Translations under genes and position numbers: made by a program
Notes under the pieces: generated by a model
What the model was told of the DNA's origin: nothing
The model's database searches: none
Seen by the model: the letters and a program-made list of their open reading frames with translations, nothing else
Source: Coriolopsis trogii
Lineage: Eukaryota; Basidiomycota; Agaricomycetes; Polyporales; Polyporaceae
Reading direction: 5' to 3'
NCBI GenBank assembly: GCA_020543525.1
Contig: JAHYIO010000004.1
Span: 1,984,001 to 2,048,000 of the forward strand
Length of the DNA: 64,000 nucleotides
Part shown: positions 23,757-51,005 of the stretch, piece after piece
Position numbering within the stretch: the first letter of the stretch is position 1
Layout of the letters: each line of letters opens with the position of its first letter

Positions 23757-24697
23757 AGCCCATTCAGTAAGAATATACTGTATGCTGTGTCCCTCGGCGG
23801 TGCAAATGCACTGTGTGGGCGTGGCACGCGGCGCCGCGCGGTCGGGTCGTGGGAACCTGGGGGGTGTTCCGCGCGGGTGGTCGGCCGGGAGGCATAATGG
23901 TGAGCCGCGCGGACCGGGTATGGGTGAGTGATCGGGTGGTGGTCCGGGGTAGGGGGACCGTGTTATGAGCGATCTGGACGCGTTCTGTGGTCGTAGACTG
24001 TCTGTATTTGCCTGCATAGTCCCTGTAGGCACTGTGAGTGACAATGCAACGTTTACCGGGCGTATTAAAGCAACACGAGGGGTGAAACGGTGAGTTGGAG
24101 CGGTCCGGGCAGGGGGACCGGGTGGCGGCTTGTGGGCCGGGAGGCAGGTGGATGGGTCCGGACGCCTTGGGCGAGTTATGGAGGCTACTCCCATGCTGGG
24201 AGGTGTGGTTTAGAGGGCATATGGGGCCTGTGCAAGGCGGTGTGGGCGGTGGGGGATGGGGGTAAGGGGTCGGGTTGCGGTTCGCCAGCCGGCTACATTG
24301 GCGGCTCGGACGGACGGCCTGTGTTCGTCGGAGCATATGGGTCCTGGCATAGCGTTTGGGACCTGTGGAAGCGGGTGTTGAGTGGGAAATAACATACAGC
24401 TATGGTCAGGATGGTGAACCGAGCGGCATTGGAGATGGTGGTCCGGTGACCCGCGCGGAGTTGGCCATGTGGTGCGAGGAGTACCGCGCGGCCCGACGGC
24501 GAGCCCGATATGGTGTTCCGCGCGGGCTTCACCATGACTTTGGTTTTCCGAGCCGCGCGGTCGGTGTCATCTCTGGGATTGGTGCACCGCGCGGCTCGGT
24601 ATAAAGCAGTGCACTGCGTTCCGCGCGGCTGCCTGCCCACTGCACCAACCGAACCGCGGGTGCACCAGCCGACCCGGATGCGATCCCACACTCCCTC
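23757..24697. repeat. Left terminal inverted repeat of the KDZ element
   Basis: About 940 bp, inverted counterpart of 50,064-51,005. The outermost 15 or so bases are only partly matched (AGCCCATTCAGTA against CACTGGATTCAATA). From CTGTGTCCCTCGGCGG inward, identity is very high. Several CCGCGCGG palindromes lie inside. Long Pro/Arg-rich open frames across it are composition artefacts, since they appear in mirror orientation in both arms. Confidence 0.93.
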
Positions 24698-26045
24698 TAC
24701 GGGCTTCTTTGGCGGCTTAAACGGTCCACTGGTATTGTACCAAAACCGGGAGGGTTGGTGTAGTGTTATAGACCTCTAGAGAGGTATGTCAAAGCTGGGA
24801 AAAGATCCAGCCATAGTCAGGTCAGTGAACCGAGCGGCATTGGAAGATGGTTATTCAATGAGCCGCGCGGGGGTTGGCCGGATGGTAGTCACAGTACCGC
24901 GCGGTGGGCTGGTGAGACCGCACCGATGATCCGCGCGGGATGCACAAAAACCCTTTGTCGCTGTGCCGCGCGGATGTCGCACATCCTGGTTATTCTGTCC
25001 CGCGCGGTCCTACATAATACACTGCAATGCGGTCCGCGCGGCCGTCGGGCGTGTATCTACCTAGGCTAGGTTATAAAGTCTCAATCCCGTAAGCTGCCAT
25101 TGATTGACCTTTCCTCTGTATTTAAACCGGGTCAAGCGACCATCCATGTGGCGCGGCTCGCCCGGTTGGTACAAAAACCTAATCGGCTGGGATATGCCAC
25201 TTTCCGTCCCCTTAGACGCCCTCTCTCATGCGCGACTCTCCCGCTGGCCCGAGGCGATAGATTGGACCGAAGCCCAGCCCACTGAAGCATGGCTTATAAC
25301 TCAATTTACCTTGTCTCAGGGTAGAGGGCACCTCATTCCAAACCAAAGCCAGCGGCGGTCAGGCCAAGCTGGGCCGAGCACAATACTGTTGTCGGCAGTG
25401 CAACAAGTAAATGCGACCCGACCCGGGAATACATTTGTGTGCCGCGCGGTCGTTCAACATAAACCGGCTGCCTGTACCGCACGGAGGTTGGCTGCAAATC
25501 TTTACATTGAAACGCGCGGCCGGGTGTGGCTACTATGTGACCGATCCGCGCGGCCTCCCATGGGTCATGTCCATCCGTACCGCGCGGTCTGCTCACACTG
25601 TTCCAGCCCTGCTTTGTCAGACTGAGCTCGCCGGCCTCCATCTCAGTCATCAAGGAGCCCCTGGGAGTGTGAGTTCAGGTGGTACTCACTACCAAACTGC
25701 TGACGAGCATGACGACCTGTAGAACCGGCTGAACGGCATCCTGGCAGGAGGCTTCTCATCCGAGCCGAGCGGTGCTCCCCTGGGCCTCAAATTCCCCCTG
25801 AGCATACGCAGCCACCAGCCCGTGCGTTGGGTGCGAATTACAATGATTTGGAGGTGTGGGTATTCTGGCGTTCAAATATCATCAAGTTATTGCCGATCAA
25901 AAGCAAGATCTGTCATTGAGCCCGAAGTATGTACACAAGTGGGCCGCGCAGCCCTCTGAACATGTCTGCGCAAAGTCCCGCGCGGTGCCATAAGTGGTAC
26001 TCTAGATTGTGCACCGCGCGGTAATAGCGGGGTTCTGGTTTGCTG

Positions 26046-26200
26046 CACCGCGCGGTCGCCACACCCCTACAGTCATATGCACCGCGCGGTCTCCAGAATG
26101 CTACAATCACATGGACCGCGCGGTCTCCACAGTGACACAGTCACATGGACCGCGCGGTCTTCACGATGGTACAATCACATGGACCGCGCGGTGACCCATC
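26046..26200. repeat. Tandem 34-35-bp units each holding one CCGCGCGG
   Basis: Five consecutive units of the form (a/g)(c)accgcgcggt(c)...(a)cag/caatcaca(tg) recur with a 34-35 bp period, close to three helical turns. A second cluster with similar spacing lies at 26,757-26,900, where one unit has the variant CCGCACGG. Confidence 0.85.
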
Positions 26201-26756
26201 TGTTGCAGTCATAGTGCGGTGGAATGACTGTCAATGCTGCTTGCATGCAACATTCCTATATCAACTCTCACCTCGAACGTATGCTAGCCTTGGTAGATTA
26301 ATCACTGTGCTCTCCTCCATGTGTTCAATGGTAACTTGCACGGCTGGGCTATGAGCCCTGGTGAAGTGTGCACCGAGCCGAATGTGAGCCGAGCCGGAAT
26401 GCAGCACCTCACGGCCTGGCGATTTGAGTCCACAAGAGGATCTCTCTGTCAAAGACGAGCATTGCAGACAAAGACCCTCAGCAGCATGCTATTGCTCTGT
26501 TCTGGCAATTCTGTCTGCTTGCTGAGATCCCTGCTCATCAGCTCGAAAACCCTCGAGCTAGCCGAGGCTTGCCGCTGATGCCATGTGAAATTCAGAGGTC
26601 CCGCTAAGGAGGAGCCTACAGAATTGAGCAGCCCTATTGCTTCAGGCTTTGGAAGCTGCGCGGTCCACCTCCCTTGAGCCATGGAAAGGCCGCGCGGATT
26701 AGTCTGCAGCCCTCACGCAGCGGCCGCGCGGTATAGCAACTAAGTTATCCGACGAT

Positions 26757-26900
26757 GGACCGCGCGGTGCAGTATCTAGACTCCCACAACGCACCGCACG
26801 GTGCAGTATCTGGACTCCCACAACGCACCGCGCGGTACACCATCTAGACCCCCGCATCACACCGCGCGGGGCGCAATTTCCTTGCCACTGACTCCCGCGC
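26757..26900. repeat. Second tandem cluster of CCGCGCGG units
   Basis: Four units of about 35 bp share gaccgcgcggtgcagtatct and a following ctagactcccacaac-type spacer. One unit has a CpG-to-CpA change (CCGCACGG), as expected from deamination of methylated cytosine. Confidence 0.8.
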
Positions 26901-28452
26901 GGCGTACTAATCAGGAACTGCAGTTGGTAGCGGGTCAGCTGAGCCGGGCCGATTTGGCAGCCAGGCCGGACACTCATCTTGGCCGATTTTCGGTTCATAT
27001 GGGTGCCCAGTCCAGTGTGGACAAGCAGTATGGCGTCCACAATCCAGCCATGACTAACAATAAGCAATTCCAATTTGTGACGATTCTAGGTGTGCAGGTG
27101 TTGCCCATTGGGCAAGAAAACAAGATATTTACAACGTCCTATGTGATGTACACTTTTGCGCAATCGTCTAGTCTGATGAATTCTCCCATCCCAGCCGCCT
27201 ATGCACCTCCTCGAGGACGTGATCCCAATGATTACCGTAGCCCTCATTTGCGTCTTGCATCAGCGCGCGGGATTGAACCTGGCCGACAAGTTGTCGGATG
27301 TAGTGGCAATGCCTAACCTCGGCGTCGACGTACCTCATGACGAGCTTCGTGACGGACATTGTTGCCGAGGCGTTCACGTTGTTCTCAGACTCCTCCTGTG
27401 CAGGGATTGAGCGGAGATTTGGGGACGAACAAGGGCGCAGGATGGGGTCAGCGTCCAGGCGTACCTCAAGGGCTCCAGATGCTGCTGGGCCGGGTTGATC
27501 GCCGAAGAATGTATCGACAAGCATTTCGTCAGGCCCTTCAGGAGCCTCCTCACCAGCAAAGAACTGGGCGGAAAAAAACATGGGGCCCCCGGGAAAGGGC
27601 TGCTGGGCCGGCTGAGGAAATGAGTGGCCCAACTGGTGCTCGGCCACAAAGAGGGAGGCGTCGGCATCTTGGTGGACCTCGCTCGGTTCGGGAGATGCGT
27701 CGCCGAACCGGTGCTCAGCGACAAAGGAGCCGTCGACGTCCTGGTGAGCCTCGCCCGGTTCGGGAGATTCGTCGCCGAACCGGTGCTCGGCGACGAAGAG
27801 GGAGGCGTCGGCGTCCTGGTGAGCCTCACCCGGTTCAAGAGATTCGTCGCCGAACCGGTGCTCGGCGACGAGAAGAGAGGCGTTACCGGCTACATTGTCC
27901 TCTTCGGGTGGAGGAAACGAGATGTCTGTCTCCAGCCCAACCGCTGGGAGGTCAGGCGTTTCGTCGCCAAAAAAACCCTCGGCTCGGAGGAGCGAGGCAC
28001 TGGCCTCTTCCATTTGTGGAGCCGGCTCGGGGGATGCATCGGAAAAGAAGTCGTTGGCAATAAGTGGGCTTACTTGACTTGCGTCTGTGTGCGTCGCCCC
28101 TTGCTCGCTGGTATCCGTGCTGGTTGGGATAGGCGACCCGGAAACCTGAACCTCCTGCATACCCTGTCGAGCGTCAGGTAGTCAGTTAGTGGTTCGGCGT
28201 GATGCCAAGCTTATAGCTCACTGCAGCAACCATCTTTTCTCGCCAATTCATGATAGGGGACGTTGGAAAGGTACGGGCAATTGACGGGCGGTGTCCGGGC
28301 GGCGAGCGACCTGGTTGTGTAGCGCCAGTGAGCAGGTCGCTGAACCAGGGCTCCATCCGAGGAGTTGAGAGACGGCTGCCCGTCGTAAATTCACCGGGAA
28401 AATTGACGGCGTTATTTTCACTCTGGGGGTTGATTGTCGCTCCTTCACGAGA

Positions 28453-28457
28453 CGGTG
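28453..28457. repeat. Left target-site duplication of the copia element
   Basis: CGGTG here and at 34,961-34,965 flank the two LTRs exactly, the 5-bp duplication expected from a retroviral-type integrase. Confidence 0.9.
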
Positions 28458-29024
28458 TGATGAACTCTGAATCTGGAAGGCTTGGAGCGACCTGTAAGTC
28501 ACACAAAGAGAGATCTTCAGTCAGTGAGCGAACGACTATATTGCATAGTTTAGTACCTGTAAGTCACACAAAGAGAGACTACAAGTACTAGTAAGTAAAG
28601 TGTAGTAGAGCATAAGTAATGAGTGAGACTTACTCTTCAGTCAGTGAGCGAACGACTGAAGAGCAGAGGGGCAAACAGACTGCCTTATATACTGGAGAGA
28701 GGAGTGCATGAGTAAGCGAATGAAGCAGTCACATGTTAACCATAGAGCGATGAGTAAGAGTCCGTACTCGGCGTATGAGTAAGAGCCAAGAGTATTCTGA
28801 GTAAGACATAAGGTCTAGAATGTTCCGGTGCATTGTAGAACGCACAGGAAGACAAGGGAACCATATGGTCATGGGAATGTACAGTAGTTTCGTAGAGAAA
28901 ACCGTATATGGTAAGTAGAAACACAGCCTATAGTAAGCGCTATCTAAACATAGGTAAACATGATCATACAAAGGTTGTGTGCACAACTCCGGACCGGTAG
29001 AGCCGTAAATCCAGAATGTCAACA
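28458..29024 (-). repeat. 3' LTR of the copia element
   Basis: 567 bp, same length as its partner at 34,394-34,960. It contains an internal duplication of tgtaagtcacacaaagagag and several agtgagcgaacgact motifs. Confidence 0.93.
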
Positions 29025-29035
29025 CTCCCACTCGT

Positions 29036-32000
29036 TCAAGATGCAACGGACACAAGACCTATCTCCTCAACGAATTTGGCCTGATTGGAGTAAGGCACGT
29101 TCTTCGTGAGGGGGTCGGCCAATTGGTCCTCAGAAGCGACATAGTAGATCTCAACAGATCCCATCTCGACCTGTTCACGAATGAAGTGATAACGGATCTC
29201 TATGTGCTTGGTACGACGGTCAATGACTGGATTGACAGACAAGAAGATCGAGCCTTGGTTGTCGAGACACAAAGGCGTCGGATCAGTCACGTCATCTCCG
29301 AGTTCATCGCCGAAGGTCCTCAGCCATGCCAACTGACGACAAGTGTCGGAGGCCGCTTTATATTCCGCCTCGGTCGAGGAGAGCGAAATGGTAGGCTGAC
29401 GCCTTGATGCCCACGATACAGCACCACCTGCCATCAAGAAGACAAAGCCAGAGGTTGAGTGCCGATCATCACGGTCTTCCGCCCAGTCCGAATCTGAGTA
29501 CGAAATCAGACCGTCATTAGACGCTCCCTTGTAGCGCAGCCGGTACGCCTTTGTTCCCTGAAGATAACGCAGGACATACTTGGCATAGTTCATGTGCGCT
29601 TCAGAGGGATTGGCATTGTACTTGGATAACCGTGTGACAGCGAAAGCAATATCAGGGCGCGTCCCGAGCATGGCGTACAAAAGACTGCCAATAAGACTCT
29701 GGTAGCGTTGCCTGAATGAATCGGAAGCGGGCTGATCGGTTTTCACCAAAACAGCACCAGCAGGGAGAGGAGTACGCGACGGTTTACAGTCAGCCATCTG
29801 GAAACGCTCAAGGACAGACTGGATATACTCTTCCTGGTCGATGTCGAGTGTTCGAGTGGAACGATCTCGAGTGATGCGAAGACCAAGGAAGCGCTTGACT
29901 GGTCCCAAGTCCATCATCTTGTACTGCTTAGAGAGAGAGCGCTTGACGTGCTTGATGTGACTAGACTGATCGCCAATGAGAAGTAGATCGTCGACATAGA
30001 GTACGACAATTGTTACGTGTTCCCCCCCTTGTCGCCGATATACGTAGATCCCGGCATCAGAATAGGTCCGTTGGAATCCCAAGTCAAGAAGCGACTGATG
30101 AATCTTCGCATTCCATTGACGCGACGCCTGTTTAAGACCATAGATAGCCTTTTTGAGCAGACAGACGTGATCTTCCTTCCCAGGAACGACCCAGCCTTCG
30201 GGCTGTTCCATGTAGATCTCCTCTTCGAGATCGCCATTCAGAAACGCGGTCTTGACATCCATAGATTCGATGTCCCAGTCCTCAAGCGCAGCATGCGCAA
30301 GAAGATACCGGATAGACTTGAACCGCGCAACCGGAGAGAACGTCTCGTGATAGTCCTCACCCCATACTTGAGTAAAACCGCGAGCAACAAGACGAGCTTT
30401 ATACCGCCCATCATGTTTAATGTCATAAACCCAGCGGTTTGAGACAATGTGTCGACCTTTAGGACGAGGAACAAGTAACCAGGTTCTGTTCTCGATGAGC
30501 GAGTCATACTCCGACTTCTCAGCTTCGCGCCACTTAGGAGCATCAGGTGATCGCATGGCCTCCTTGTGGGATTGAGGAATACCAGCTTTCGACTGAGCAG
30601 CAGCGAGAAAAGCGAGGAAAGTCTCTGCCTCCCACTGATCTCCATCCGGATCTGTCCGAGCGTCAACATGAACCGGGTTCTCGTCACCATAGATGTTGTC
30701 CTGAGTCCTACTCGGGTGGGGAATGCCTGCTTTGTCACGATGAGGACGGTCACGAGCAATGCTAGGCTGATTATCTCCCACTGGTCTGTTACGACCACGA
30801 CGGTGAGGAGGATGAGGAGCAGGAACAGGCGGTGGTGTTGGAGGACGATCAGGGGCATTAGCCGGAGCAGGTGCTTCAGGCGCATCATCGTCTACAGAGT
30901 GATCAAGCGGTGGTGGGACATCAAGCGGAATGGGAAGGGGAATGTCCAGGATGTCGTTGGGATCGACCGAGTCAGAGTCGTCGTTCGAGGACTCATCCGA
31001 CTGGTCATTCACAAACGGATTATCACTGGGGGCGACAGGTTGATTGCCAGGAAGTTTTCGTGCAGGGAAAGACTCTTCATCGAATGTCACATCGCGGGAC
31101 ACGACGATAGAACGGGTGGCCGGATTCCAAAAACGATACCCCTTGGAACCCTGCTCATACCCCACGAAGATCATCTCGACTGCCTTCTTGTCGAGCTTCC
31201 CTTCGCGCTTCGCCTTCTGCACATGCACAAAGGCTTTGCACCCAAACACGCGGAAGTAGGAAACGTCCGGTATGGTACCGTCCCACAACGTGATAGGGCA
31301 TTGCCATTTGTGTCGTCGCATAGGTTGACGATTGTAGATATGAACGGCTGCATCGATGGCAAGTTGCCAGAAACCGTGACTAAGTCCAGCCTGATGTAAC
31401 ATACACAAAGCCTTCTCGGTGATGGTACGGTTCCAGCGTTCAGCACGTCCATTCTGTTGAGGTGAACCCGCAACTGTCTTCTGGTGCTCGATGCCATGCG
31501 AACGAAGAAGCTCGCTGAACTCGCTAGACGTGTATTCCCCCCCTCGATCAGAGCGGACTTTCTTGATCTTTTTACCGGTCTGAGTCTCAGCCCATGCCTT
31601 ATAGTCGAGGAATGCTTTGATAGCATCCGACTTGTGCTTAAGGTAATAGGCGCGAGCAAGACCAGAGTAATCGTCAATGAAACCGGCAAAATACTTCCAT
31701 CCTCCAATAGCCTGAGTACGCATCGGTCCATCGAGATCTGTATGGATGAGCTCGAGAACTTCAGTCGCACGCTTCTCAGAAGGTGGGAAGGGGGTGCGAG
31801 TGGATTTGCCAAAGGCGCATCCATCACATGGCTCTTCATCCGCAGGATCAACGGCATCAACTCCCTTGGTGTTCTTAGGAAGATGACGCAGCACGTCCTT
31901 GCCCGCATGACCAAAGCGACGATGCCAGGTCTTGAAGCGACGGACATTGAGGTGGACACGCTGACCATTACGGAGTTCGAGGAGCGTCCAGTACGTGTTG

Positions 32001-33691
32001 CTATTCGGGTTGTACCTCGCCTCAAGGATCTTTCGACCCATGATACGAATCATCGAACCATGTTTGACAGCACCATCAGGTAGCTTGTCAAAGATACACA
32101 TGCGACCTTCGCCTTGGAACAAGGAATAACCATTGCGCTCGATGGAGCCCGTCGAGAAAAGACGACCTTCCACATGCGGGATGTAGTAGACGTTGTTGAA
32201 GGTGACAGGGACGCTCTGATTATCAATGTACGCGATCCCTTCAACCGTTCCCGATCCAAGCGCATGGATAACACTACTTTCCCCTGACGCAGCCGTTCCA
32301 AAAGGAACAGTGGTCTCGAAAGGCTGGTAGGTGGAGAAGTTAGACATGTCGCCGGTGATATGTTGAGAGGCTCCTGAGTCCATAAGCCACATGGTCCACT
32401 TCGAGCTGTCCGAGGCCATAGCCTCATCATAGAAAGAAGCAGCGATGTTCGAGGGACCCGAAAGTACGTTTACAGCTGATACAGACTCAGAGACGACATG
32501 TGCATGGCTATGAGAAGTAGTGTCCTTGTTCTTCCCCTTGTCCTTGTCCTTATCCCTCTCCTTCTCCTTCTTCTTGCCCTTGGGACGCTTGTCTGGGTGC
32601 TTCTTGTAGCAGTTGGACTCGTGGTGAGAACTACCGCCACAGAAGGAGCAAGGACCCTTAGGCTTCGGCTTGGTCTGGGAGACCTTGTTGGCGGACTGTC
32701 CGTTCTTGCGCAATGACTCCTCGGCCAAGGTCTTCGACTGGATGTCGTCGAGGGTGACCTTGTCGATGTCCGTAATAGCCATTAGCGCAGAAACCATGGA
32801 CTGGTAGGACTCGGGGACCTTCGACAGCAACAGGAGAGCCTGCATGGTCTCGCTGAGCTTGACGCCGTTGCTATCGATGTCGCGAAGGCGGTTGATGATC
32901 TTCATCATCTGGTCCTGGAGAGGCTTCGAATCGTTGATGCGAGGCTCTGCAATGAGCGACTCGAACATGCCCCAGACGTGAGCACTGTTGGGCGTGCCAA
33001 ACTTCGTCTTGATGGCGGCCCAGGTCTCAGCGGCTGTCATGGTACGAGGAGCAGCACCACCTTGACCCAGAACCTTCGCATCGAGGACGTAGTGGAAGTT
33101 CGGTGAGACCCGCATATACATCATGCCGCGAGCCTGCCCATTGAGCTTCTGCCATGCCTCTATGGCGACTAACTCCGCCGCAGTGGCAGTAGTACCGGCA
33201 GGAGAGGGCTCAGTCTTGGTGCCTTCGACAATCTCCCAACAGCCCATGAAGATGAAGTACCCCTTGAGCTTTGCAGCCCAGTCATTGTACTGGTTCGCCG
33301 AAGAAAGGATAGGGATCGAGTCGATCTTGACGTCTCCCATGATTGAAAGCAGGTACTGAGAAGAGTGGAGATAATCCTCGTCGTCGAAGTCTAGAGTAAA
33401 GGATATAGGCGCAACAGATGGAAGCGCAGTGACGAGAGGAGGAGGAAGAGTTTCGATTGGAGAGAGATGCGGAGATGCGACGAGAGGGGTGTCGTATGGG
33501 GTGTTAGAGGCGAGAGGAAGCGCTACGACAAGTGGTGTGTCGTAGGGTGTATCGGATGCGACTGGAAGAGCTGTGTTGACTCCAGCAAGAAACTCCTCGT
33601 CTGCTTGGTAGGGAGAGATAGGTTGCCAAGCGAACGATGTGGGATCTTCCGGTAAAGCAACGTTGTTGTACCGATGAGGACAGGGGCTCAC
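29036..33691 (-). CDS. Copia Gag-Pol polyprotein
   Basis: 1551 codons without interruption. Order of domains: Gag (from about MGDVKIDSIPIL near residue 113), CCHC zinc knuckle CSFCGGSSHHESNC, aspartic protease WLMDSGASQH, pre-integrase HRRFGHAGKDVLRHL with CDGCAFGK, integrase core (DDYSGLARAYYL, SDRGGEYTS, GSPQQNGRAERWNR), reverse transcriptase (DVKTAFLNGDLEEEIYMEQP, VVLYVDDLLLIGD), RNase H (SYSDSDWAEDRDDRHSTSG, SLSSTEAEYKA). Integrase before reverse transcriptase marks it as Ty1/copia. All catalytic motifs appear intact. The first ATG (33,691) precedes about 110 residues of low similarity, so translation may start at a later ATG. Confidence 0.95.
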   Translation of the reverse strand: MSPCPHRYNNVALPEDPTSFAWQPISPYQADEEFLAGVNTALPVASDTPYDTPLVVALPLASNTPYDTPLVASPHLSPIETLPPPLVTALPSVAPISFTLDFDDEDYLHSSQYLLSIMGDVKIDSIPILSSANQYNDWAAKLKGYFIFMGCWEIVEGTKTEPSPAGTTATAAELVAIEAWQKLNGQARGMMYMRVSPNFHYVLDAKVLGQGGAAPRTMTAAETWAAIKTKFGTPNSAHVWGMFESLIAEPRINDSKPLQDQMMKIINRLRDIDSNGVKLSETMQALLLLSKVPESYQSMVSALMAITDIDKVTLDDIQSKTLAEESLRKNGQSANKVSQTKPKPKGPCSFCGGSSHHESNCYKKHPDKRPKGKKKEKERDKDKDKGKNKDTTSHSHAHVVSESVSAVNVLSGPSNIAASFYDEAMASDSSKWTMWLMDSGASQHITGDMSNFSTYQPFETTVPFGTAASGESSVIHALGSGTVEGIAYIDNQSVPVTFNNVYYIPHVEGRLFSTGSIERNGYSLFQGEGRMCIFDKLPDGAVKHGSMIRIMGRKILEARYNPNSNTYWTLLELRNGQRVHLNVRRFKTWHRRFGHAGKDVLRHLPKNTKGVDAVDPADEEPCDGCAFGKSTRTPFPPSEKRATEVLELIHTDLDGPMRTQAIGGWKYFAGFIDDYSGLARAYYLKHKSDAIKAFLDYKAWAETQTGKKIKKVRSDRGGEYTSSEFSELLRSHGIEHQKTVAGSPQQNGRAERWNRTITEKALCMLHQAGLSHGFWQLAIDAAVHIYNRQPMRRHKWQCPITLWDGTIPDVSYFRVFGCKAFVHVQKAKREGKLDKKAVEMIFVGYEQGSKGYRFWNPATRSIVVSRDVTFDEESFPARKLPGNQPVAPSDNPFVNDQSDESSNDDSDSVDPNDILDIPLPIPLDVPPPLDHSVDDDAPEAPAPANAPDRPPTPPPVPAPHPPHRRGRNRPVGDNQPSIARDRPHRDKAGIPHPSRTQDNIYGDENPVHVDARTDPDGDQWEAETFLAFLAAAQSKAGIPQSHKEAMRSPDAPKWREAEKSEYDSLIENRTWLLVPRPKGRHIVSNRWVYDIKHDGRYKARLVARGFTQVWGEDYHETFSPVARFKSIRYLLAHAALEDWDIESMDVKTAFLNGDLEEEIYMEQPEGWVVPGKEDHVCLLKKAIYGLKQASRQWNAKIHQSLLDLGFQRTYSDAGIYVYRRQGGEHVTIVVLYVDDLLLIGDQSSHIKHVKRSLSKQYKMMDLGPVKRFLGLRITRDRSTRTLDIDQEEYIQSVLERFQMADCKPSRTPLPAGAVLVKTDQPASDSFRQRYQSLIGSLLYAMLGTRPDIAFAVTRLSKYNANPSEAHMNYAKYVLRYLQGTKAYRLRYKGASNDGLISYSDSDWAEDRDDRHSTSGFVFLMAGGAVSWASRRQPTISLSSTEAEYKAASDTCRQLAWLRTFGDELGDDVTDPTPLCLDNQGSIFLSVNPVIDRRTKHIEIRYHFIREQVEMGSVEIYYVASEDQLADPLTKNVPYSNQAKFVEEIGLVSVAS

Positions 33692-34393
33692 GGCACAATT
33701 GTACCAACCGTCGCTTTGAAGGTGGGCGTCGACTTGTTCGTCAGAGTCCCAAACGTGTGGAAGATCCTCGCAGGATTCCTCGTTGCCTGAGCTGTCAGAG
33801 GATGCTTCTGTCGAAGTATCAACGATGTCCTCGACTTCAGACTCAGAGGAATGAGGAGATGCTGGAAGAGTCGGCTCCAGAACGGTGGTTCAAAGTATAC
33901 GCGATGATTGACGTGCCACGTGCGAGGAAGGTGGACAGGGGCACCTTTTGAGGTGAACCAGAGAGCCAGTAAGCCGAAATTACCGACAATCCGGGTAGAA
34001 GTCGCCAACTGTGCCCAAGAAACGCTATAGTAACTACCGAGGCAAAAAGGTATCGTAAGGAGGGTCCGAACGGTTGTCCTCCGGTCCAAAGGTGCTAACC
34101 ACCCCGGGTACAACAGCTGGCGGGCGCAAGTGCGTGGCCTGGCTGAGGGATGCCTGAATCACCCAGGTGCCTCGAGAGCACAACAGGTGTTACAACGATA
34201 GTAGACTAGAGACTGACTACGAAGCGCTCAGGGCTGCGTCACGAGCGCAGAAATGTCCCCCTGGCAGCAGTGTCGGCGGGCACAGTCAAGAGAGTAGGAA
34301 AGTGGGATGCACGGGCAGAGAGTCGACGTACAAAGAGTTGCGCGCAGAGGTGTCGACAGAGAAGCAACCGATTAGAGCGCAGGGCTCATAACC

Positions 34394-34960
34394 TGATGAA
34401 CTCTGAACCTGGAAGGCTTGGAGCGACCTGTAAGTCACACAAAGAGAGATCTTCAGTCAGTGAGCGAACGACTATATTGCATAGTTTAGTACCTGTAAGT
34501 CACACAAAGAGAGACTACAAGTACTAGTAAGTAAAGTGTAGTAGAGCATAAGTAATGAGTGAGACTTACTCTTCAGTCAGTGAGCGAACGACTGAAGAGC
34601 AGAGGGGCAAACAGACTGCCTTATATACTGGAGAGAGGAGTGCATGAGTAAGCGAATGAAGCAGTCACATGTTAACCATAGAGCGATGAGTAAGAGTCCG
34701 TACTCGGCGTATGAGTAAGAGCCAAGAGTATTCTGAGTAAGACATAAGGTCTAGAATGTTCCGGTGCATTGTAGAACGCACAGGAAGACAAGGGAACCAT
34801 ATGGTCATGGGAATGTACAGTAGTTTCGTAGAGAAAACCGTATATGGTAAGTAGAAACACAGCCTATAGTAAGCGCTATCTAAACATAGGTAAACATGAT
34901 CATACAAAGGTTGTGTGCACAACTCCGGACCGGTAGAGCCGTAAATCCAGAATGTCAACA
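34394..34960 (-). repeat. 5' LTR of the copia element
   Basis: 567 bp, begins TGTTGACATTCTGG when read on the coding strand. It drives the Gag-Pol frame that lies to its left. About 700 bp of leader (33,692-34,393) separates it from the first Gag ATG. Confidence 0.93.
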
Positions 34961-34987
34961 CGGTGGTGGCTGGAAATTGATGAACAT

Positions 34988-35314
34988 GAATATTTGCGGC
35001 TCGGCTGAGAGAATAGCGCTTGGGAAGACAAACCTGGGACATGTTTGGCGACGGGATGCTGCTGGTCGGTCAATGGGCTGAACGAGCCTGAGTTTTTGTC
35101 CTCTGAAGAACCATGAAATTTGAACAATGGACGTGGAAGCCTTGGTCCGTGCGTGAACTTTATTGTCCGGGCCGGGCCGAGGATACGAAATGGGCGTCTA
35201 TTGGCATTATAGAGGTCTTCGGACGGAGACAACTGTCGCAACACAACGACTCCCATTTTTTCCCTCTCTTCTGCAGTGCTCTGCTTTCAATCTGCTCTCT
35301 GTCTTGCTGCACTC
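34988..35314. promoter_or_regulatory. Divergent promoter between two KDZ cargo genes
   Basis: The 327 bp between the start codon of the repeat-bearing cargo gene (minus strand) and that of the zinc-cluster gene (plus strand) must hold both promoters. A pyrimidine-rich run (ccctctcttctgcagtgctctgc) precedes the plus-strand ATG. No CCGCGCGG motif is present here. Confidence 0.5.
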
Positions 35315-41900: not shown

Positions 41901-42125
41901 TCGACGGCCCGGCCCGACGCATGCAAGAGCACTCACCGACTGAATGAAGCTACGCGCATATGGATCGTTGGCATCGCGCTCCCGCCCCTCAAGAATTTTT
42001 GTGGTCAGGGCGTTTTTCACCAAGGTCTTCTCGTTCTTAGACATGGTGAGCCACGACTCAAGGTGCTCCTCGAGATACTTCTGTTCCTTCTCGGTGAGCC
42101 CTAGGTCTTCAGCCACGGCGGCCAT
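38979..42125 (-). CDS. KDZ cargo: 942-aa protein of unknown function
   Basis: Seven exons join in frame (42125-41937, 41883-41552, 41492-41367, 41332-41022, 40962-40049, 39990-39399, 39343-38979). The N-terminal third is well ordered: LGLTEKEQKYLEEHLESWLT, then KINSWFQLNL, a coiled segment, LPPAEQTRYEDIARTW (recalling HMG-box-like or nuclear-cargo proteins common beside KDZ transposases), IKKRLPHWVHGFLKMLWDQ, CFGTVVLTYNDDKG. The middle is an Ala/Lys-rich low-complexity region (KAAKAAAAAAAAAVTAKG). A helical region NLEDRMLGWVSWQDDV follows, and the C-terminus is highly basic (KGKTGKKKARRGG, RRSARKAKRV), suggesting nuclear or DNA-associated localisation. Related proteins sit in other fungal KDZ elements to my knowledge, but no function is assigned. 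The start at 42,125 fits the MAAVAEDLG context. Confidence 0.75.
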
Positions 42126-42429
42126 TGTGGTGGATTGTGCAGCAAAAAGGCGTATAAACAAAACAAAGCAATGATAATACCTGGCCCGGTCGTAGCCCTC
42201 GTCCTGATACTAAGTCATCCGGGCGGTGGGGCAGCTCGCGGGTCGTTGCCCGGATGAGGCTTTCGGGTCGGATGGGACCGGTCCGGCCATCGATACGGGC
42301 GGCAGAACAATGTGGCGATCCTCTCCTCCCGCCTCGCGCCAAGTAGGCACGCTGATTGCGCATCAAACCCTCCACACGACACCTTATCACGCCACAGACT
42401 TGACGCGTGACCCTTGACCCTGCTCCGCC
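42126..42429. promoter_or_regulatory. Divergent promoter between the 942-aa cargo gene and TET/JBP
   Basis: About 304 bp between two divergent start codons, so both promoters must share it. It contains short CG-rich stretches such as ggcccggtcgtagcc, but none of the CCGCGCGG palindromes of the arms. Confidence 0.5.
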
Positions 42430-43729
42430 ATGGATGCATATCCCGCTGACTCTGGCGCGTTTCACGACCGTGTCTCTGCTCATCTCAGAGACCTGGTACT
42501 TGCGCAAATCTGCGTAGTATCCAGTCCAACAGTTACCACAGGCATTGGCATATCAGACTGGACCGATGGACTGGAGGCCGATCTCCAACGGGCGGCAGAT
42601 GTGATTTCATCCGCGTGGAGCTACCCGGGTAGATATTTGATCGAGACTGCGGACGGCTCACAATCGCTGACCATCTCCCCAATAGTTCCAGTGCCCTGGA
42701 ATGCTCAAGATCTTGCAGACCAACTCTCCAAGCGCCCAAGCGGCTTGTGCATGGCCCTTGAGGACGCTTTGCTAGACACGTTCCCGCCCATGTGTGGTAT
42801 TGAAGCTGTGCTTCAGAATAACTTTCCGCTCTTACGGCGGCCGGCCGTACTTGTCGACCCGCAGAATCGCATCCTGCTTTGGTACCTGCCAGGGGTGTTA
42901 AGCTCTGAGCGTCAGGTGAAGCGAGCTGATTTGCAATAGCGCTGATGACAAATTAATCTTGAGTTCCAGGACGCCATGCTGCACGCTACAGATGCGATCA
43001 AGGCTCAGTTTACTATTGGCCCGCCCACACACGATCCCGCGGTTAAGTGGCGGTCGGCTCCTACCTTTTACGGCCCGGGTCACATATGGCAGTCCGGCCA
43101 GTGGCTCGGCAGTCCAGTCCAGTATCCGTGCGGGCACCAGGTGAGCCGCAATGAATAATTGACCGGACGACCATTCAAACGCGTGAATACTGCTGCAGGG
43201 CAAAGCCACCAAGCCAGGGCCATCTAAACAGCTTAATACGCCTGCCGGAGCTGTATGGTGCGACCGTATGAAGGAATCAGGCGCGCTGTGCAGCGCTCTG
43301 CTGTTTGTGACTCATCCGGCCCTGTACCGCGCGGCCCGGGTCACGATGGCCCGAGCCGCAGACGCAGCATCAACCGCGGTAGGAGAACATCACAGGCTGT
43401 GGCCTTCGGTATGGCACAGTACCCAAGTAATCATAAACCGCGAGACTCCCTTTCATCGAGACACCTCTGGCAAAGACACATGGTACGAGCTCCTCATGTC
43501 ACTCGGAACGTGTTCCAAGGCAGCACTGGTCCTCCGGAACATCGGAATACAAGTCGGATACCTTCCGGGAACGGCGGTGTTGATGTCCAGCCGGCTTATC
43601 CACCATGGGGTAGCCAAAGTTGAGCCGGACCGTATATGCTACACTTGGTACATGTCCGCTTCCTTACATAACAATTTCTCTGGCGAGGATGTGCCTTGGG
43701 TTACGCGGGACGAGCTATCCGGACCATAG
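42430..43729 (+). CDS. TET/JBP-family 5-methylcytosine dioxygenase
   Basis: Fe(II)/2-oxoglutarate dioxygenase predicted to oxidise 5-methylcytosine in nuclear DNA. Three exons (42430-42915, 42970-43140, 43199-43729) give 395 aa, a typical length for the compact TET/JBP proteins of basidiomycetes. The catalytic core is in exon 3: the family motif INRETPFHRD with iron ligands His about 305 and Asp about 307, then GIQVGYLPGTAVLMSSRLIHHGV with the distal His at about 354-355, and the 2-oxoglutarate-binding Arg in DRICYTWYM at about 364. The N-terminal half includes LLWYLPGVL, as in other fungal members. The transposase starts 61 bp downstream on the same strand, so the two may be co-expressed. 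All ligands are present, so the enzyme is probably active. Family membership is established knowledge; activity is inferred. Confidence 0.88.
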
Positions 43730-43790
43730 TATACTCAACGCCGCGCTTAAATCGTCCTCTGTACTTGTAACGCCTTTGCATAACTCTATC

Positions 43791-46700
43791 ATGACGTGTC
43801 GTCCTCGTGCTACACCACATCCCGCATATCAGACTCTGACTATCGCCACCAAGACAACGAAAAGAGGCACCCAGCATGTATGGACAGCCAGTGCAGCGGG
43901 AGCACCATCGGGGGCCCAGCGACGGGTGAGGAAGCCCAGGGAGCCCAAAGAGGTATTGCCTACTTCGAACAACCCCGACTTTCTGGAGATGTCGGTTGGG
44001 GAATTCACCTTTGTAGGCCCACAGGTACGTTGGTGTAATTGGGGATCCAAATGGGAGGTTGACGGGCCGGACCGCTGGAATAGAAGCCCAATGAGTACCA
44101 GCTTCTATGGCTGAGAGAATTCCGAGCCACGTACCTCCGCGAGCTGTACGAGAGGGAGGCCCAGCCTGAGGAAGACGACGTCATGTGCGGGTGTGGGGGA
44201 CCAGCACTTTGGCATTGCCTCGACTGCTCTAGCCAACGGCCGCAGTGTAGGAGGTGCTGCAAAGAGGCCCACTTTCGACATCCCTATCATCGCGTTGAGC
44301 AGTGGACTGGTACTCACTACCAAAAGTCAAGTCTTCGGTCCACGGGCGTCCGTATCTACCTCGGTCACGGAGGAGAAGTCTGTCCGAGTCTCAGATGGAC
44401 GGATGACACGAGCTGGAGACAACCGCACTCAACCGCACCCAGTGAACCTCCCGAGGTATGCATCCGTAATACTTGGGAGTGGCTCAAGCTCATCACTCTG
44501 TTAGCACGACGACAATCGCGCATCGTCGCCCATCTCTGAACCGGGGCATGAATATCACTCCGAACCAGGGACGCCACCACCACCCTCATCTCCATTGCCC
44601 GCCTCCTCTACGCCATCTAGTCCAGTGCTATCGTTAAGGTCTACTGCGAGAAACACACCTGTCAGAAGTTTGCCGAGACGTCTCCCCAGGCGCCCATCTG
44701 CCGGCCCACGGGTCGGGCCATCGGCCGGCCCGAGCATCACCCCCATGAAACGTTCCCAGCCAGAGGACTCCGACTCTGAGTCAGAAGACGACGCCAACGT
44801 TCGTATGACAAGACAACGTCTGGAAGGGCCAGATGTAGAGGTTCCGGAGGAAAATATCCAGGACATACTGGAGGCCGAAGAAGACAATCCGGACGATGCC
44901 TACGGTGTGAAGTCGGACGACGCGGCTCACATGCCCGGCTCGGGTGGGGCACCGCCCGATGGGTTGAACCAAGTTTTCTCGGACATGGAAGGCGACTACA
45001 CCAAGGTAATGGTAGTTGTGGATACCTCAGGGGTGCACGAACTTCCAGTGGTATCCTGTGCGTGCCACGACTCCCCTCCGCTCGACATTCAGCTGTTACG
45101 GCTCGGCCTGTATCCGGCCACCACCGCAAGGCCCAAGACACTTTTCACGTTTCGGGTCCTGGACGACGTGCTGCTAACAACAAAAGAGTGCAAGACCTCG
45201 ATACAAAACTACTACAACAAGCTGCGACGTGTCACCGACGATCTCTTCCCACATTCCGTCCCGGTACGGCTGCCTTCCGGCTGACACATGCACCGACCCC
45301 ACTTCTAACGTCTCAATTTCAGAATCGATACAGAGAGTTGCTACGTGTTTCACGACAGTGGAGAAACTTGAAGTCATGGAAAACGAGTGGGGTTGGATAT
45401 GAGGATCTGCTCCAGCCAGGGCGAGGGCAGTTCATCTTCCGGTGCCCGGCTTGTCCATGGCCGAACCGGAACATGAGGGACGGATGGAAGACCGACAAAC
45501 GTTGGTAAGTTCGTCAGTGCTTATTCCGATGTTCATACTGTACATTGGAACATACGGTGCAGGTGGAAGCATGCCGGGTCATGCATGCTCGATGGCAACT
45601 TCGCTGCACAACATCAGCTTCAGAAGTATCCACAACTAGACGTGCGGTTCGCCGACGGGCATGGCTGCGCGGTTGCAGTTTCTCCCTTCAAGGAGCACCT
45701 GAAAACTGCTTTCCGAGTTCGACAGGTCAGTTGAGCCGGCCCGAAATCAGTCGGACCAATAGATGCTGATCGAGCCTGGCAGAAACTGGAATGCCATGAG
45801 CATCGCGCAGTCCTCGGATCGTCCATGGAGCGTGCCAAGCTGGCTGCAACTGGAATAGGGGCGGCAGTTTGCAGTCGTCATGGATTCTTCTATCCCCACT
45901 CATGTGTGGATTTTGACGCAGGCGAAGGGTCAGTGTGTTGACGTCAAGCATGACAGCCCGCCACTGACAGAGCACACAGTCAACGACATATGGACTATGT
46001 CCTCAGCGAGGCCATGTCGTTCCTGGCCGGGCTGACGTTCCTCCTTGTGTTCTACGACATATGGTGCTTCTACTCCGTTCATCTGCTCACCCGAATGGAG
46101 AAGAGCCCTGGCATATCAATTCCGGAGGGCCTCGTCGTTTCGGGTGGTATTGATCAGTTTCACGTCCATGGTCATAAGCGGGAATGCTACCCGCGGTACT
46201 CACCTCACTTTGTACCCGGAGCCGGAGTCCAAACTGGGGACATTATCGAAACGCTCTGGGCTCCTCTGAACAAAATCAGCGATAGCACACGTGGCATGTC
46301 GGCTGCGCACCGTCAAGAGTTCAATGACGATTTCATGAACGATTCCAATTGGAACAAGCTCACCCGCCTAAGTAAGCATGCGCCCCCCACCCGAAAAATG
46401 TTCCGGCTAACGGTCTGCAAGCCGCATCTCTCGTGAAGAAGTGGCGAAATGCCGCAGAGGAGACACCGGGTGCCCAAGAGGGATTTCACTCCATCACAGC
46501 CACATCTGACCCAAATGACGTGCGTGTATGGTCGCGGATGGCGAAGGAAGCGGCCGAGCAACGAAGACAGAACATCAAAGTCATGGACATATACGACATG
46601 TCAGAAGACAGCCGTAAGTACTCTCCCCCTCTATTGCACGACGTGTCTTCACTGAGTCTTGGAGACAGTGCCCACAAGAAAAGAGATCGCTCTGGAGCTG

Positions 46701-48091
46701 ACGAAAGAGGAGACCAAACACCCCTCTAAGCTGCGTGGAGCGGTTGCCTGGTTACAGACAGGCCTCAAGATTGAGGAGAAACGGTACGAACGGTGATCTC
46801 ATGGAGGTTATATAGCTGTATCTAACAAGAACTTGCACTGCAGTCTCGAAATAGCAGCCACCGCCCGAAAACTTCGGTCTACCTCGCCCACCAAGGACCA
46901 TCTGGCTCTCGAGCAGATGCGCGTGAGGCTGCTAAGGGACATAGAGAAGTTCCATAAGGAGGCCAGCCGGTTTCTGCCAGCTGCAGCTCTCTCAACAGCA
47001 TTATTCCTTCCGCCATCCACGAAATCACCGGGCGCCGGCTGGGATACGCTCAAGCCATCCGAGCCGGGGTCCGGCTCGGCCGATGCTGAACCGGTCGACA
47101 ATCATAGCGATGACGAGGACGAAGATCCACTCCCACAATCCAACCTGGAGTCCCATGCTGCTTCCAGCGCTGAGAACCAGCCGAGAACAGTGGGCGAATC
47201 TTCGTCTGCCACCACTGCACCTAATGCCACATCCACCCCTCGAAAGTCGACCGGTCCGGTACAGCCGTCGGAACGGATCACTATTGGCCTGCCCTCGAAT
47301 CTCGGACCCACGTTGTGCGCTATGCATGGGCTAAAAGACCTCGTTGTCAAAGAGCGGCGCCTTCGCGTGGGGCAGATGAACGACGCCCTGCACGCAGTTC
47401 GCGTGGGCGTCGCCTACAAGTCTTTCCTCTACCGATCGTCTGTCCGACGGGCCACTTCGTACCGCGCACGCCTCCGAAGTTTTGACGAGGTGCATAACTC
47501 CAATCAAGACACGTTGGCACATGCCCGTCTGTATATGTGTGCTCGAACCTCCCTCATGAGTCTCTATGACGACAGCATTCCGGCGGATGCTAAGCTGAAG
47601 GAGGAGATGCTGGCTAAATATCGGGTCCTGGAGAAATCAGACCTCAAGGCCAACACAACCCTAATCGAACACGACGTCCGCGGTGTCTCGCACAAGCACC
47701 TCCCCTGGTTTTGGTCTCTTGACGTCAACATGGAAACAAAGGGCAGCGCCTGGATGGCAGAATGTGAGTAGCCATCGTCTCTCTAGCATCCCGCAGCTCT
47801 GACCCGGGCCGGCTGACCACAGTGTACCGAGTTCTCTGGCTGAGAGCCCATGCGAGAAAGACGCGATGGGAGGAGGAGGTAGACATTGTGAGCGAAGAGT
47901 TTTTCCGGACGGAGACCTCCTTCCAAAAAAATCGGGACGAGTGGCTGCAGCGCAAAGATTCATCGCTCGGCCGCGGTTATCGTGCCTGGGCATGCCAGCA
48001 GGCTGCTCTTTGGGATTCCCTGGCAATTCATGCCTCCAGAGAGTTTTCCGAGGCACAGCGTATTTGGAAAGCCCCCACTGTATCCTTATAG
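43791..48091 (+). CDS. KDZ transposase with CxC2 cysteine cluster
   Basis: Eleven exons join in frame to 1246 aa. Residues about 110-190 form the CxC2 cysteine cluster (MCGCGG...WHCLDCSSQRPQCRRCC...HFRHPYHRVEQW, then LGHGGEVC). Around residues 340-430 lies the conserved block VVDTSGVHELPV...DIQLLRLGLYPATTARPK. The KDZ core follows: CPACPWPNRNM, SCMLDGNFAAQH (first Asp, about 525), GIGAAVCSRHGFFYPHSCVDF, LVFYDIWCFYSVH (second Asp, about 644), FHVHGHKREC, and TGDIIETLWAPLNKIS (Glu, about 708). These are the likely DDE residues. The C-terminal helical region with a Ser-rich linker runs to LWLRAHARKTRWEEEV and a stop at 48,089-48,091. It should cut and join the element ends; the cysteine cluster may bind DNA. 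No frame disruption was seen. Confidence 0.92.
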
Positions 48092-48253
48092 TTCACTTTA
48101 GTATGTACGTTCTGAGTTACTCGGTTGAATTGCGGCTCGGATGGCGGCCCGGGCCACGGCCGGCGTTTACTTCGTTGGCCCGGCGCGCTGGTGACAAAGG
48201 CTACAGCTTCCGAAAGCTTATCCGCCCCATCTTGCCCTCCTACAATCATACCA

Positions 48254-49089
48254 ATGCCTCCACTCGCCGCCGATATTATGCTCTCGGAGTGCGGAAGGTT
48301 CGAACTCGAATGGATCGCCAACAAGATCGCTACCGCCTTCAAGGCCTATCCCGAACACCCGTCGCAGATAACCAAACAGCGATGGGGAACAGGCCTCGCA
48401 ATAGAATGCGTAGGTCCCAAGATTCACCACTACTCAAGCGCGCCATCACTAATTGTTTACTTTTACCAGTGGGACGCCATAGCGGCCTACGGAATTCACT
48501 GTACCGGCAAAGCACTATCGCCTGCAGTGCCCACCGGGGCGACCCAGTCGGCTGATCCGGTGTTGCCAGCAATCATCACAGAGCTCCTACGTCATGCCGC
48601 ATGGCGAGGACTCTTCATGTCAATCGCAATGGATGACCTGAACCTGGCGGCTTTCAAACAACTGGCTGAAGACGTCCCCGAGATGAATGTTGAAATTCCT
48701 ATGGTCCGAAGGTGGTGGGAGTGGCCCGAAGACGCCCAGAATGTTCAAATTGTGGAGGGTCATAGCTGGTGGCTGTCTCCTCCCGAATTTGTGGTGAGTT
48801 CTGATTTCTTGTTGGGGTACAGTTCGAGCTCATAGCCTTGTATACTCAGCCGCAGCCATTGCAAGGATATGCCTGGGATGTTGTTGATATAAACGTCCAC
48901 CTCGATGCCATCACCCAAGCAACCGAGTCCATGTTTGACAATTACGACACCCTTGTTCACGACCTCGCGATCATCACCAGCGAGGGCGCAGATGACAGCG
49001 AGGCCTCCCAGCTCGGAGACAGGATGGAGGCACAACAGGCGGAAGGGCACATGGAGGGCGCTGACGAGAACATCCAAACCCTAAACTAG
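48254..49089 (+). CDS. KDZ cargo: 259-aa protein of unknown function
   Basis: Exon 1 (48254-48793) and exon 2 (48850-49089) join through a 56-nt intron in frame. The protein is acidic with Trp-rich stretches (RRWWEWPEDAQNVQIVEGHSWWL) and a helical N-terminus (IMLSECGRFELEWIANKIATAF). The C-terminus contains YAWDVVDINVHLDAITQATESM. I do not recognise a domain. It follows the transposase by 162 bp on the same strand and is the last gene before the right arm. It could be an accessory factor for transposition. Confidence 0.65.
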
Positions 49090-50063
49090 CACAGTGCCCA
49101 TGTAACTGCATAGTACAACCATGGAAGTGACCACCGGAGTTGCCCAGCCGCACCAGGATGTGTCCGGCATACAGCCAATTCTGTCAAACCCACTCTGCGG
49201 CATATACCGCGCCCTCTAGGGGGGTCAGCCCACAGGGTCAGTCCGAGACAGGGCGCCAGCGGTCCGTCACATCCGGGTCGGCTGGTGTACCCGCGGTTCG
49301 GTTGGTGCGGTGGGCAGGCAGCCGCGCGGAACGCAGTGCACTGCTTTATGCCGAGCCGCGCGGAATGCAGTGCACTGCTTTATGCCGCGCCGCGCGGCGC
49401 ACTGACACTGGAAGCGGCACCGACCGCGCGGCTCGGAAACCAAAGTCTTTGTACAGCCCGCGCGGGACACCCTCCCAGCGTCATCCCACGCCCGCGCGGT
49501 ACTTTGCCCAGCACCTTGCCAGCTCCGCGCCGATCACTGGATCACCGCGGTCCAAAACGTATCTTCCACCAGGAGCATAGCATGCCTGACCTACAAGTCG
49601 CTCCAGCAGCGTCGTCCGTGAAAGACTGCCAAGTCGGCGTCCATGGCGGCGGGGTAGATCCTCGTTCAGGAAGCTAAATTTGGATCACATGTCAATTCCA
49701 TTGCTAGCGAGTATGGCCCAGACTTCCCTTTTAACCTCGCTCTTGCCATTGTGAGCGCATGACAATGTGAATCATGATGTGCACTTGGCACGGTAAACGG
49801 CGAGGATAATTTGAACACCATATGGACCGGAAACATAGAACAGATGGCCGCCCGGCTCAAGCCATCCGAGCGGTTGTGCTCTCCGCGCGGCTCGGTGAAC
49901 GACTTGGCGCCAGCGGTCCGCGCGGTTCGGGCGCACGGGAGGTCCAGAGTTTCCGCGCGGTACGAAGTCATACCATTGAAGCACAGTTTGTTAGAGGCGC
50001 AATAAATGATGATTGCACAAGGGCAGCCCTGGGATACAAGGCGGACCATACCAGAACCTCATA
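49090..50063. repeat. Right subterminal arm with CCGCGCGG palindromes
   Basis: By eye this arm and the right TIR hold about 17 copies of CCGCGCGG, beginning near 49,320. The arm is shorter than its left counterpart (about 1 kb against 2.2 kb) and no gene is seen. A central stretch (about 49,520-49,880) is free of the motif. Confidence 0.85.
49268..49467. repeat. Internal direct copy of the inner TIR segment
   Basis: The sequence from catccgggtcggctggtg through accgaccgcgcggctcgg is a diverged direct repeat of about 50,079-50,248, the inner end of the right TIR. Within it the block gccgcgcggaa(t/c)gcagtgcactgcttt is itself duplicated (49,320 and 49,354). It shows growth of the arm by local duplication. 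Confidence 0.8.
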
Positions 50064-51005
50064 GGAGGAGTGTGGGGTCGCATCCGGGTCGGCTGGTGCA
50101 CCCGCGGTTCGGTTGGTGCAGTGGGCAGGCGGCCGCGCGGAATGCCTTGCACTGCTTTATACCGAGCCGCGCGGTGCACCAATACCAGAGATGACACCGA
50201 CCGCGCGGCTCGGAAAACCAAAATCATGGTGAAGCCCGCGCAGAACACCATATCGAGCTTGCCGTCGGGCCGCGCGGTACTCATCGCACCACATGGCCAA
50301 CTCCGCGCGGGTCACCGGACCACCATCTCCAATGCCGCTCGGTTCACCATCCTGACCATAGCTGTATATTATTTCCCACTCAACACCCGCTTCCACAGGT
50401 CCCAAACGCTATGCCCGGACCCATATGCTCCGACGAACACAGGCCGTCCGTCCGAGCCGCCAATGTAGCCGGCTGGCGAACCGCAACCCGACCCCTTACC
50501 CCCATCCCCCACCACCCGCACTGCCTTGCACAGGCCTCATATGCCCTCTAAACCACACCTCCCAGCATGGGAGTAGCCTCCATAACTCGCCCAAGGCGTC
50601 CGGACCCATCCACCTGCCTCCCGGCCCACAAGCCGCCACCCGGTCCCCCTGCCCGGACCGCTCCAACTCACCGTTTCACCCCTCGTGTTGCTTTAATACG
50701 CCCGGTAAACGTTGCATTGTCACTCACAGTGCCTACAGGGACTATGCAGGCAAATACAGACAGTCTACGACCACAGAACGCGTCCAGATCGCTCATAACA
50801 CGGTCCCCCTACCCCGGACCACCACCCGATCACTCACCCATACCCGGTCCGCGCGGCTCACCATTATGCCTCCCGGCCGACCACCCGCGCGGAACACCCC
50901 CCAGGTTCCCACAACCCGACCGCGCGGCGCCGCGTGCCACGCCCACACAGTGCATTTGCACCGCCGAGGGACACAGTATACAGAGTATTTCTATTGAATC
51001 CAGTG
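50064..51005. repeat. Right terminal inverted repeat of the KDZ element
   Basis: Inverted counterpart of 23,757-24,697 with only scattered differences. The outer end (read inwards from 51,005) is CACTGGATTCAATAG. It contains CCGCGCGG sites at matching positions to the left TIR. Confidence 0.93.

Follow-up and report, generated by a model that had tools for sequence, protein, structure and literature searches.

CpG-palindrome arrays at both ends of a TET-bearing Kyakuja-like KDZ transposon of Coriolopsis trogii: candidate binding sites for a transposon-encoded protein

It is an open question why TET genes occur in fungal DNA transposons, and according to a 2025 survey the function of TET in these elements lacks experimental validation (PMC12730594). 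The question is addressed here by a single element in a stretch of 64,000 nucleotides from Coriolopsis trogii (assembly GCA_020543525.1, contig JAHYIO010000004.1, positions 1,984,001 to 2,048,000), which we refer to as the window. The element, a Kyakuja-like KDZ transposon, encodes a TET/JBP oxygenase and carries dense arrays of the palindrome CCGCGCGG close to both ends. With a probability of roughly 0.55, we read these arrays as candidate binding sites for a transposon-encoded protein that mark the element ends; methylation may block them, and TET may reopen them.

An earlier note on this DNA had estimated by eye that about 50 palindromes with three CpGs each crowd both ends of the element, and that there are very few in its interior and flanks. 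Exact counting bore this out. The window contains 49 copies of CCGCGCGG, each with three CpGs, in two arrays and at a single interior position (43327, within the TET frame). None was found in the flanks (1-23755 and 51006-64000), so the motif is not equally dense outside the arms.

23834..26902, no strand: left subterminal array, 31 exact CCGCGCGG in a register of about 34 bp
49322..50927, no strand: right subterminal array, 17 exact CCGCGCGG
24419..24426, plus strand: CCGAGCGG variant, in register at a group edge

In 1000 dinucleotide shuffles, the left arm (3412 bp) yielded a mean of 0.18 CCGCGCGG and the right arm (1918 bp) a mean of 0.15, with a maximum of 2 in either case. The genome-wide rate of the motif would predict 0.13 and 0.07 copies, respectively. 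When one mismatch was allowed, the window contained 88 sites against 41 expected. Over the whole 38.8-Mb genome the excess was mild (1465 CCGCGCGG versus 1008 for the word read backward), but pairs separated by a gap of 20-30 bp numbered 199, versus 1 for the backward control.

The sites in the arms are regularly spaced. Neighbor spacings below 120 bp were 33-36 bp in 35 cases (34 bp 22 times, 35 bp six times, 36 bp four times, 33 bp three times), with 68, 69 and 104 bp occurring once each. The left array is divided into groups of 3, 6, 6, 3, 7 and 6 exact sites, whose first positions are 23834, 24451, 24863, 25442, 25978 and 26690, and the right array into groups of 6, 3, 5 and 3, whose first positions are 49322, 49883, 50133 and 50849. 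In the variant CCGAGCGG the middle one of the three CpGs of the palindrome is missing and the other two remain. It marks the edge of three groups, where it falls within the register (24419, 24830, and 50335 as the reverse complement), and also occurs out of register at 25765 and 49866.

A 304-base left-end probe identified 24 places in the genome. Five pairs of ends lie 19.9-34.5 kb apart (the window copy and copies D, B, C and A). With a further TET-containing copy on C2, for which one end was located, there are six long TET-containing copies. Five other pairs are short derivatives of 3.9-6.2 kb, with 3-8 exact CCGCGCGG within 1.5-1.8 kb at each of their ten ends. Genome searches, in which only the best candidates for TET, KDZ and the zinc-cluster gene described below were scored, gave no hit for any of the three between the short-derivative ends.

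The earlier note had placed the element at 23757..51005. The right limit was correct, and the left one is actually at 23756. The ends and the genes used to classify the element are as follows.

23756..51005, no strand: whole Kyakuja-like KDZ element with CA..TG ends, inserted Copia included
23749..23755, no strand: left 7-bp target-site duplication CTCATCT, matching 51006-51012
51006..51012, no strand: right 7-bp target-site duplication CTCATCT, matching 23749-23755
23762..24694, plus strand: left long inverted repeat, 97.4% identical to 50999-50067
50067..50999, minus strand: right long inverted repeat, pairing with 23762-24694
42418..43729, plus strand: TET/JBP oxygenase gene (predicted extent), catalytic part 43187-43729
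44084..49089, plus strand: KDZ transposase gene (predicted extent), reading toward the right arm

The arms are thus built as inverted repeats of 933 bp with 97.4% identity. Exact 7-bp target duplications were read by hand at seven of the ten paired ends (the window copy, which was rechecked, D, C, A, and the short derivatives n1, n2 and n4). Copy B has a 7-bp duplication with one mismatch, and no duplication was seen at the paired ends of n3 and n5. In the derivative n3 both ends are of the right type and identical, as are their flanks, which suggests that it belongs to an inverted duplication. An 8-bp duplication of the Zisupton type was considered and rejected: 8 letters match at the ends of the window copy and copy A, and in n2 with a shift of one base, whereas only 7 match in D, C, n1 and n4. 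The CA..TG ends, the 7-bp duplications and the KDZ domain of the transposase (PF18758, 88.3 bits, frame 45954-46436) agree with Kyakuja, whereas the terminal inverted repeats do not agree with the two Laccaria Kyakuja families, which are reported to lack them. Because this absence is reported for two families and not as a rule, we tentatively classify the element as a Kyakuja-like KDZ transposon.

Comparison of arms suggests that the palindromes have been conserved. When the right arm of copy D (L010) was aligned with that of a short derivative (L021), the six cores within columns 680-960 were identical at 46 of 48 bases, versus 102 of 232 bases in the spacers (Fisher p 1.4e-12). In eight further pairs the cores retained 37-46 of 48 and the spacers 98-110 of 232 bases, so that cores outlasted spacers in all nine pairs scored against short-derivative arms. 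In each pair the cores were defined on one arm and their conservation was scored on its partner; the nine pairs share ancestry and are not independent. Site positions are also kept: distances from the arm end in right-type ends agree between families to about one base (73, 108, 144, 690/691, 757/758 and 860). Since the cores are kept while the spacers are scrambled, they look like selected protein-binding sites. To this extent the comparison supports the proposal of the earlier note that the palindromes are bound by the transposase or an accessory protein; for the binder itself there are candidates.

The first candidate is suggested by the motif. CCGCGCGG has the form CCG-N2-CGG, an everted CGG repeat, and everted CCG-Nx-CGG sites are reported in a review to be one target class of Zn2Cys6 proteins (PMC12719309). 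The element encodes a matching pattern.

35737..37770, plus strand: zinc-cluster gene with several exons (predicted model), Zn2Cys6 pattern at 36467-36559

The pattern at 36467-36559 is complete (C-x2-C-x6-C-x9-C-x2-C-x6-C) and agrees with the spacing CX2CX6CX5-9CX2CX6-8C, which is described along with coiled-coil dimers in PMC5082525. A GT..AG joint is present near 36409-36458, and a heptad-rich stretch in the later frame 36985-37770. All six long copies contain the frame, which is interrupted by a stop in the copy on C2. Two diverged copies at 56% identity fit the same spacing with all six cysteines kept; the cysteines were read individually in the window and in these two copies. Over 100 codons of the zinc cluster, the window and a diverged copy differ with a non-synonymous rate (dN) of 0.35 and a synonymous rate (dS) of about 2, giving a rough dN/dS of about 0.18 with dS near saturation. 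The zinc cluster had already been named as a possible binder in the earlier note, and its candidacy is strengthened by these findings. Because the motif is an everted CGG repeat and the element encodes a Zn2Cys6 pattern, we regard the Zn2Cys6-pattern protein as the most likely candidate for binding CCGCGCGG.

Arrays and zinc-cluster frames were also compared across other KDZ elements of the genome. In a region on C4 (V, ~1390.6-1434.9 kb), arms enclose frames for TET (with one stop), KDZ and the zinc cluster, and the analyzed arm stretches contain 12 exact CCGCGCGG. CpG transitions account for 15 of its 18 one-mismatch sites, and CCGAGCGG occurs in it (1391802), as it does in a short-derivative arm. 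Within the V region, C4:1411.3-1418.6 kb (L020, L021, L027) appears to be an inverted duplication; its two right-type ends are identical, and the two diverged zinc-cluster frames lie in the same interval. A second family (family 2) is represented inside copy D and on C6 by two KDZ elements of ~13.7 kb, which gave no TET hit, are ~99.9% identical and have 7-bp duplications GTTGGGA and AGGCCAA. Its inverted repeats of ~445 bp contain 61-bp tandem repeats (L070, L074), another type of subterminal repeat. It has one CCGCGCGG within the KDZ gene region and no array. The GTTGGGA at 28123-28129 of the window is the empty site of family 2 that is occupied at the same place in copy D. A locus on C8 combines KDZ with a TET match of 33 bits, just below the family cut-off of 34.9. 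Repeats resembling CGGGTACGGGT at C8 ~1036.2-1036.6 kb were considered as an array and judged, by inspection only, to be unrelated. A zinc-cluster pattern was found neither in family 2 nor in the analyzed 22.3 kb of C8, in searches that a cluster split by an intron would escape. Array and zinc cluster therefore co-occur: both are present in the family of the window copy and in V, and neither in family 2 and C8. The array appears to track the zinc-cluster gene better than TET, with C8 as the exception, in a small sample of four groups, in which family 2 alone represents KDZ families without a TET hit and most KDZ loci, including those on C25, C3, C30, C36, C7, C20, C5, C39 and C28, lie outside the comparison.

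The same comparison bears on a second candidate binder. The KDZ transposase might itself bind the palindromes for end recognition through its CxC2 cysteine cluster, with the zinc-cluster protein and TET acting elsewhere. The transposase gene does adjoin the right arm and contains CxC2 (PF18803, 81.1 bits, frame 44505-45284), and in CACTA elements subterminal sites are a known cis-requirement (PMC2613891). Family 2, however, also encodes KDZ, with or without CxC2, yet it has 61-bp repeats, a single CCGCGCGG and no array. A zinc cluster, moreover, fits an everted CGG site by known chemistry, while we know of no DNA target of CxC2. We consider recognition by the transposase doubtful, although it is the strongest of the competing explanations.

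Alternatively, the arrays could be a promoter or silencer of the genes of the element and not transposition sites. A precedent exists in Spm, whose subterminal repeats are bound by the encoded TnpA, and where the activation brought about by TnpA accompanies demethylation (PMC2613891, PMC10398659). The gene arrangement argues otherwise. The remaining frames are as follows.

27168..28181, minus strand: outermost left gene frame, reading toward the left arm, putatively coding from its open frame
38979..42000, minus strand: group of open frames, probably a gene

Frame 27168-28181 matched no Pfam family above cut-off, and three frames of the 38979-42000 group had no Pfam match. The outermost frames, 27168-28181 on the minus strand and KDZ on the plus strand, both point at the arms. 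The arrays are 3' of these frames and therefore, judging by frames only, a promoter function of the arms for them seems unlikely. Divergent promoters would be expected near 35.2 and 42.2 kb, in the array-free interior, a placement derived from frames and not from transcripts. The short derivatives retain the sites in spite of having no detected TET, KDZ or zinc-cluster gene. A purely regulatory role is thus rather improbable.

The claim that the same element encodes a TET/JBP 5-methylcytosine (5mC) oxidase was upheld. The catalytic part (43187-43729) matches PF12851 at 49.4 bits, contains the HRD...H...R residues expected of the domain (HxD...H...R), and aligns to CcTET, its solved relative (E 1.4e-13). 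The matched part is free of stops in six of six long copies. In copy B (C30, L031) HRD reads HQD, with histidine and aspartate kept.

Among the six long copies, variation was compared at 946 columns of 11 arm ends. CpG columns were variable in 31 of 128 cases in the spacers and 11 of 54 in the cores, versus 25 of 402 (spacer G/C), 1 of 18 (core G/C) and 25 of 344 (A/T) for other columns. Transitions outnumbered other CpG changes 28 to 3 in spacers and 11 to 0 in cores. The TET region had 66 transitions over 508 CpG columns versus 17 over 1424 other G/C columns, and the KDZ region 60 over 512 versus 16 over 1387. The CpG-transition excess over other G/C columns was 4.5-fold in cores, 4.8-fold in spacers, 10.9-fold in TET and 10.2-fold in KDZ. 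In pairwise comparison it was 4.2-fold for the Copia retrotransposon inserted in the window copy and 1.2-fold for a single control, a duplicated flank stretch (663-2019 versus 17789-19145) of unconfirmed identity; against all non-CpG columns the same ratios were 9.3 and 2.5. Copies on C30 and C2 were richest in CpG transitions among the copies with right arm, TET and KDZ, and the window copy and D had the fewest or nearly so. There was no clear NCG preference by eye that would indicate TCG-type hypermutation, a process reported for Pucciniomycotina in PMC12730594. PF00145 DNA-methylase matches were found at two places in the genome. The footprint fits 5mC deamination and would then reflect past CpG methylation across the element.

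From these observations we infer the following course of events. The Zn2Cys6-pattern protein, as a coiled-coil dimer, would read both CGG triplets of CCG-N2-CGG and occupy many sites in the 34-bp register, with the CxC2 cluster of the transposase as second candidate for this role. When loaded, the arrays would mark the two ends and bring them together for transposition, in the manner of the TnpA sites of maize Spm/En. Methylation of the three CpGs per site could block loading, an idea suggested by the number of CpGs in each site together with the apparent CpG methylation along the length of the element. The co-encoded TET would oxidize 5mC across the element, arrays included, and so keep copies usable.

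Several findings weigh against this reading. The footprint is element-wide and not confined to the arms. Right arms of six copies, with 54 CpG transitions over 356 columns, do not differ from TET with 66 over 508 (Fisher p 0.37); when both arm types are pooled, the arms are somewhat higher (39 of 182, p 0.008). The element thus bears an apparent mutational footprint of the CpG methylation that the earlier note envisaged, but methylation specific to the arms is not supported, as the footprint spans TET and KDZ too. Core CpGs decay like other CpGs in right arms (16 of 114 versus 38 of 242, p 0.75), the left arms giving 10 of 102 versus 15 of 222, so that in recent copies the cores do not appear to be specially protected. 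Neither Pfam nor PDB sequences gave a significant match to the Zn2Cys6-pattern frame, and protein searches gave no homologues outside the genome, from a collection that may hold few such fungi (TET had only 2 hits there). The predicted structure of the frame is poor, with a mean predicted local distance difference test (pLDDT) score of 43. That V is one diverged element is our inference from the frames and arms found there. Finally, the earlier note regarded a TET-bearing KDZ element without a CpG-rich array as evidence against its model, and C8 partly provides one: there is no CCGCGCGG in the analyzed 22.3 kb, where the ends are undefined and the TET match is the marginal one given above.

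Part of the array has also grown by tandem duplication, since left-array spacers are slightly more alike than shuffles (0.30 versus a mean of 0.25 and a maximum of 0.27, n=200), and arm units 26044-26192 and 26759-26869 share spacers at 83-86%. Even with this reservation, a purely satellite-like origin, with tandem-duplicated DNA that has no binding role and cores that persist by chance or conversion, is very improbable, because cores are kept amid scrambled spacers although CpGs mutate several-fold faster, and because sites hold their distance from the arm end across families.

A bolder version of the binding-site reading is that the element has a three-part anti-silencing system through which it would sense and reset its own methylation: a Zn2Cys6 reader, an array that can be read solely in the unmethylated state, and TET as an eraser that the reader recruits. 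We consider it unlikely. If it were true, we would know of no other element that has both a sequence-specific binder of its subterminal sites and a 5mC oxidase of its own.

The window contains other repeats besides the arrays.

28458..34961, minus strand: Copia retrotransposon inserted in the window copy, 568-bp long terminal repeats 99.8% identical, 1617-aa open frame

This insertion (~6.5 kb) is absent from copy D and is no part of the proposed mechanism. The near-identical long terminal repeats and the long open frame indicate that it is young. A 98.9% copy of it adjoins the TET and KDZ locus on C8. The flanks contain two duplications, 663-2019 versus 17789-19145 (95%, inverted) and 53592-55331 versus 62073-63829 (77%), both possibly host gene duplications.

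Among known systems, the TET-containing Kyakuja elements of Agaricomycotina share the KDZ transposase, the TET/JBP gene, the CA..TG ends and the 7-bp duplications (PMC12730594). The two Laccaria families described there are reported to have no inverted repeats, whereas the present element has 933-bp repeats, CpG arrays and a zinc-cluster gene; the words subterminal and zinc are both absent from the main text of that survey. Maize Spm/En and soybean CACTA elements likewise have subterminal motifs at both ends and methylation tied to activity (PMC2613891, PMC10398659). They belong to another superfamily with another binder, and the Spm/En repeats are bound by the element-encoded TnpA, whereas here the binder is a candidate, the motif is a CpG palindrome in a 34-bp register, and the element has its own TET. 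In Arabidopsis VANDAL elements, the element-encoded sequence-specific protein VANC acts on a dense short motif in non-coding tandem repeats, and methylation is lost throughout the element (PMC5735166, PMC10398659). VANC21 sites are in introns and upstream regions and not at both ends, and the accessible text mentions no demethylating enzyme. Zn2Cys6 regulators of the Gal4 type share the cysteine spacing, the heptad-rich stretch that follows it and the CGG-triplet target class (PMC5082525, PMC12719309), but the protein described here is transposon-encoded and has no Pfam or solved-structure match. We found no earlier description of KDZ subterminal arrays or of CCGCGCGG in transposons, in a search outside which most subscription papers lay. 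The best-supported description is a TnpA- or VANC-like combination of putative binder and array in a TET-bearing element, in which TET may also act on the array.

For the question of why fungal DNA transposons carry TET, the element brings together TET, a candidate reader and a defined cis-target in which every site has three CpGs, and its short derivatives keep the sites. This makes the idea that TET serves anti-silencing in these transposons testable.

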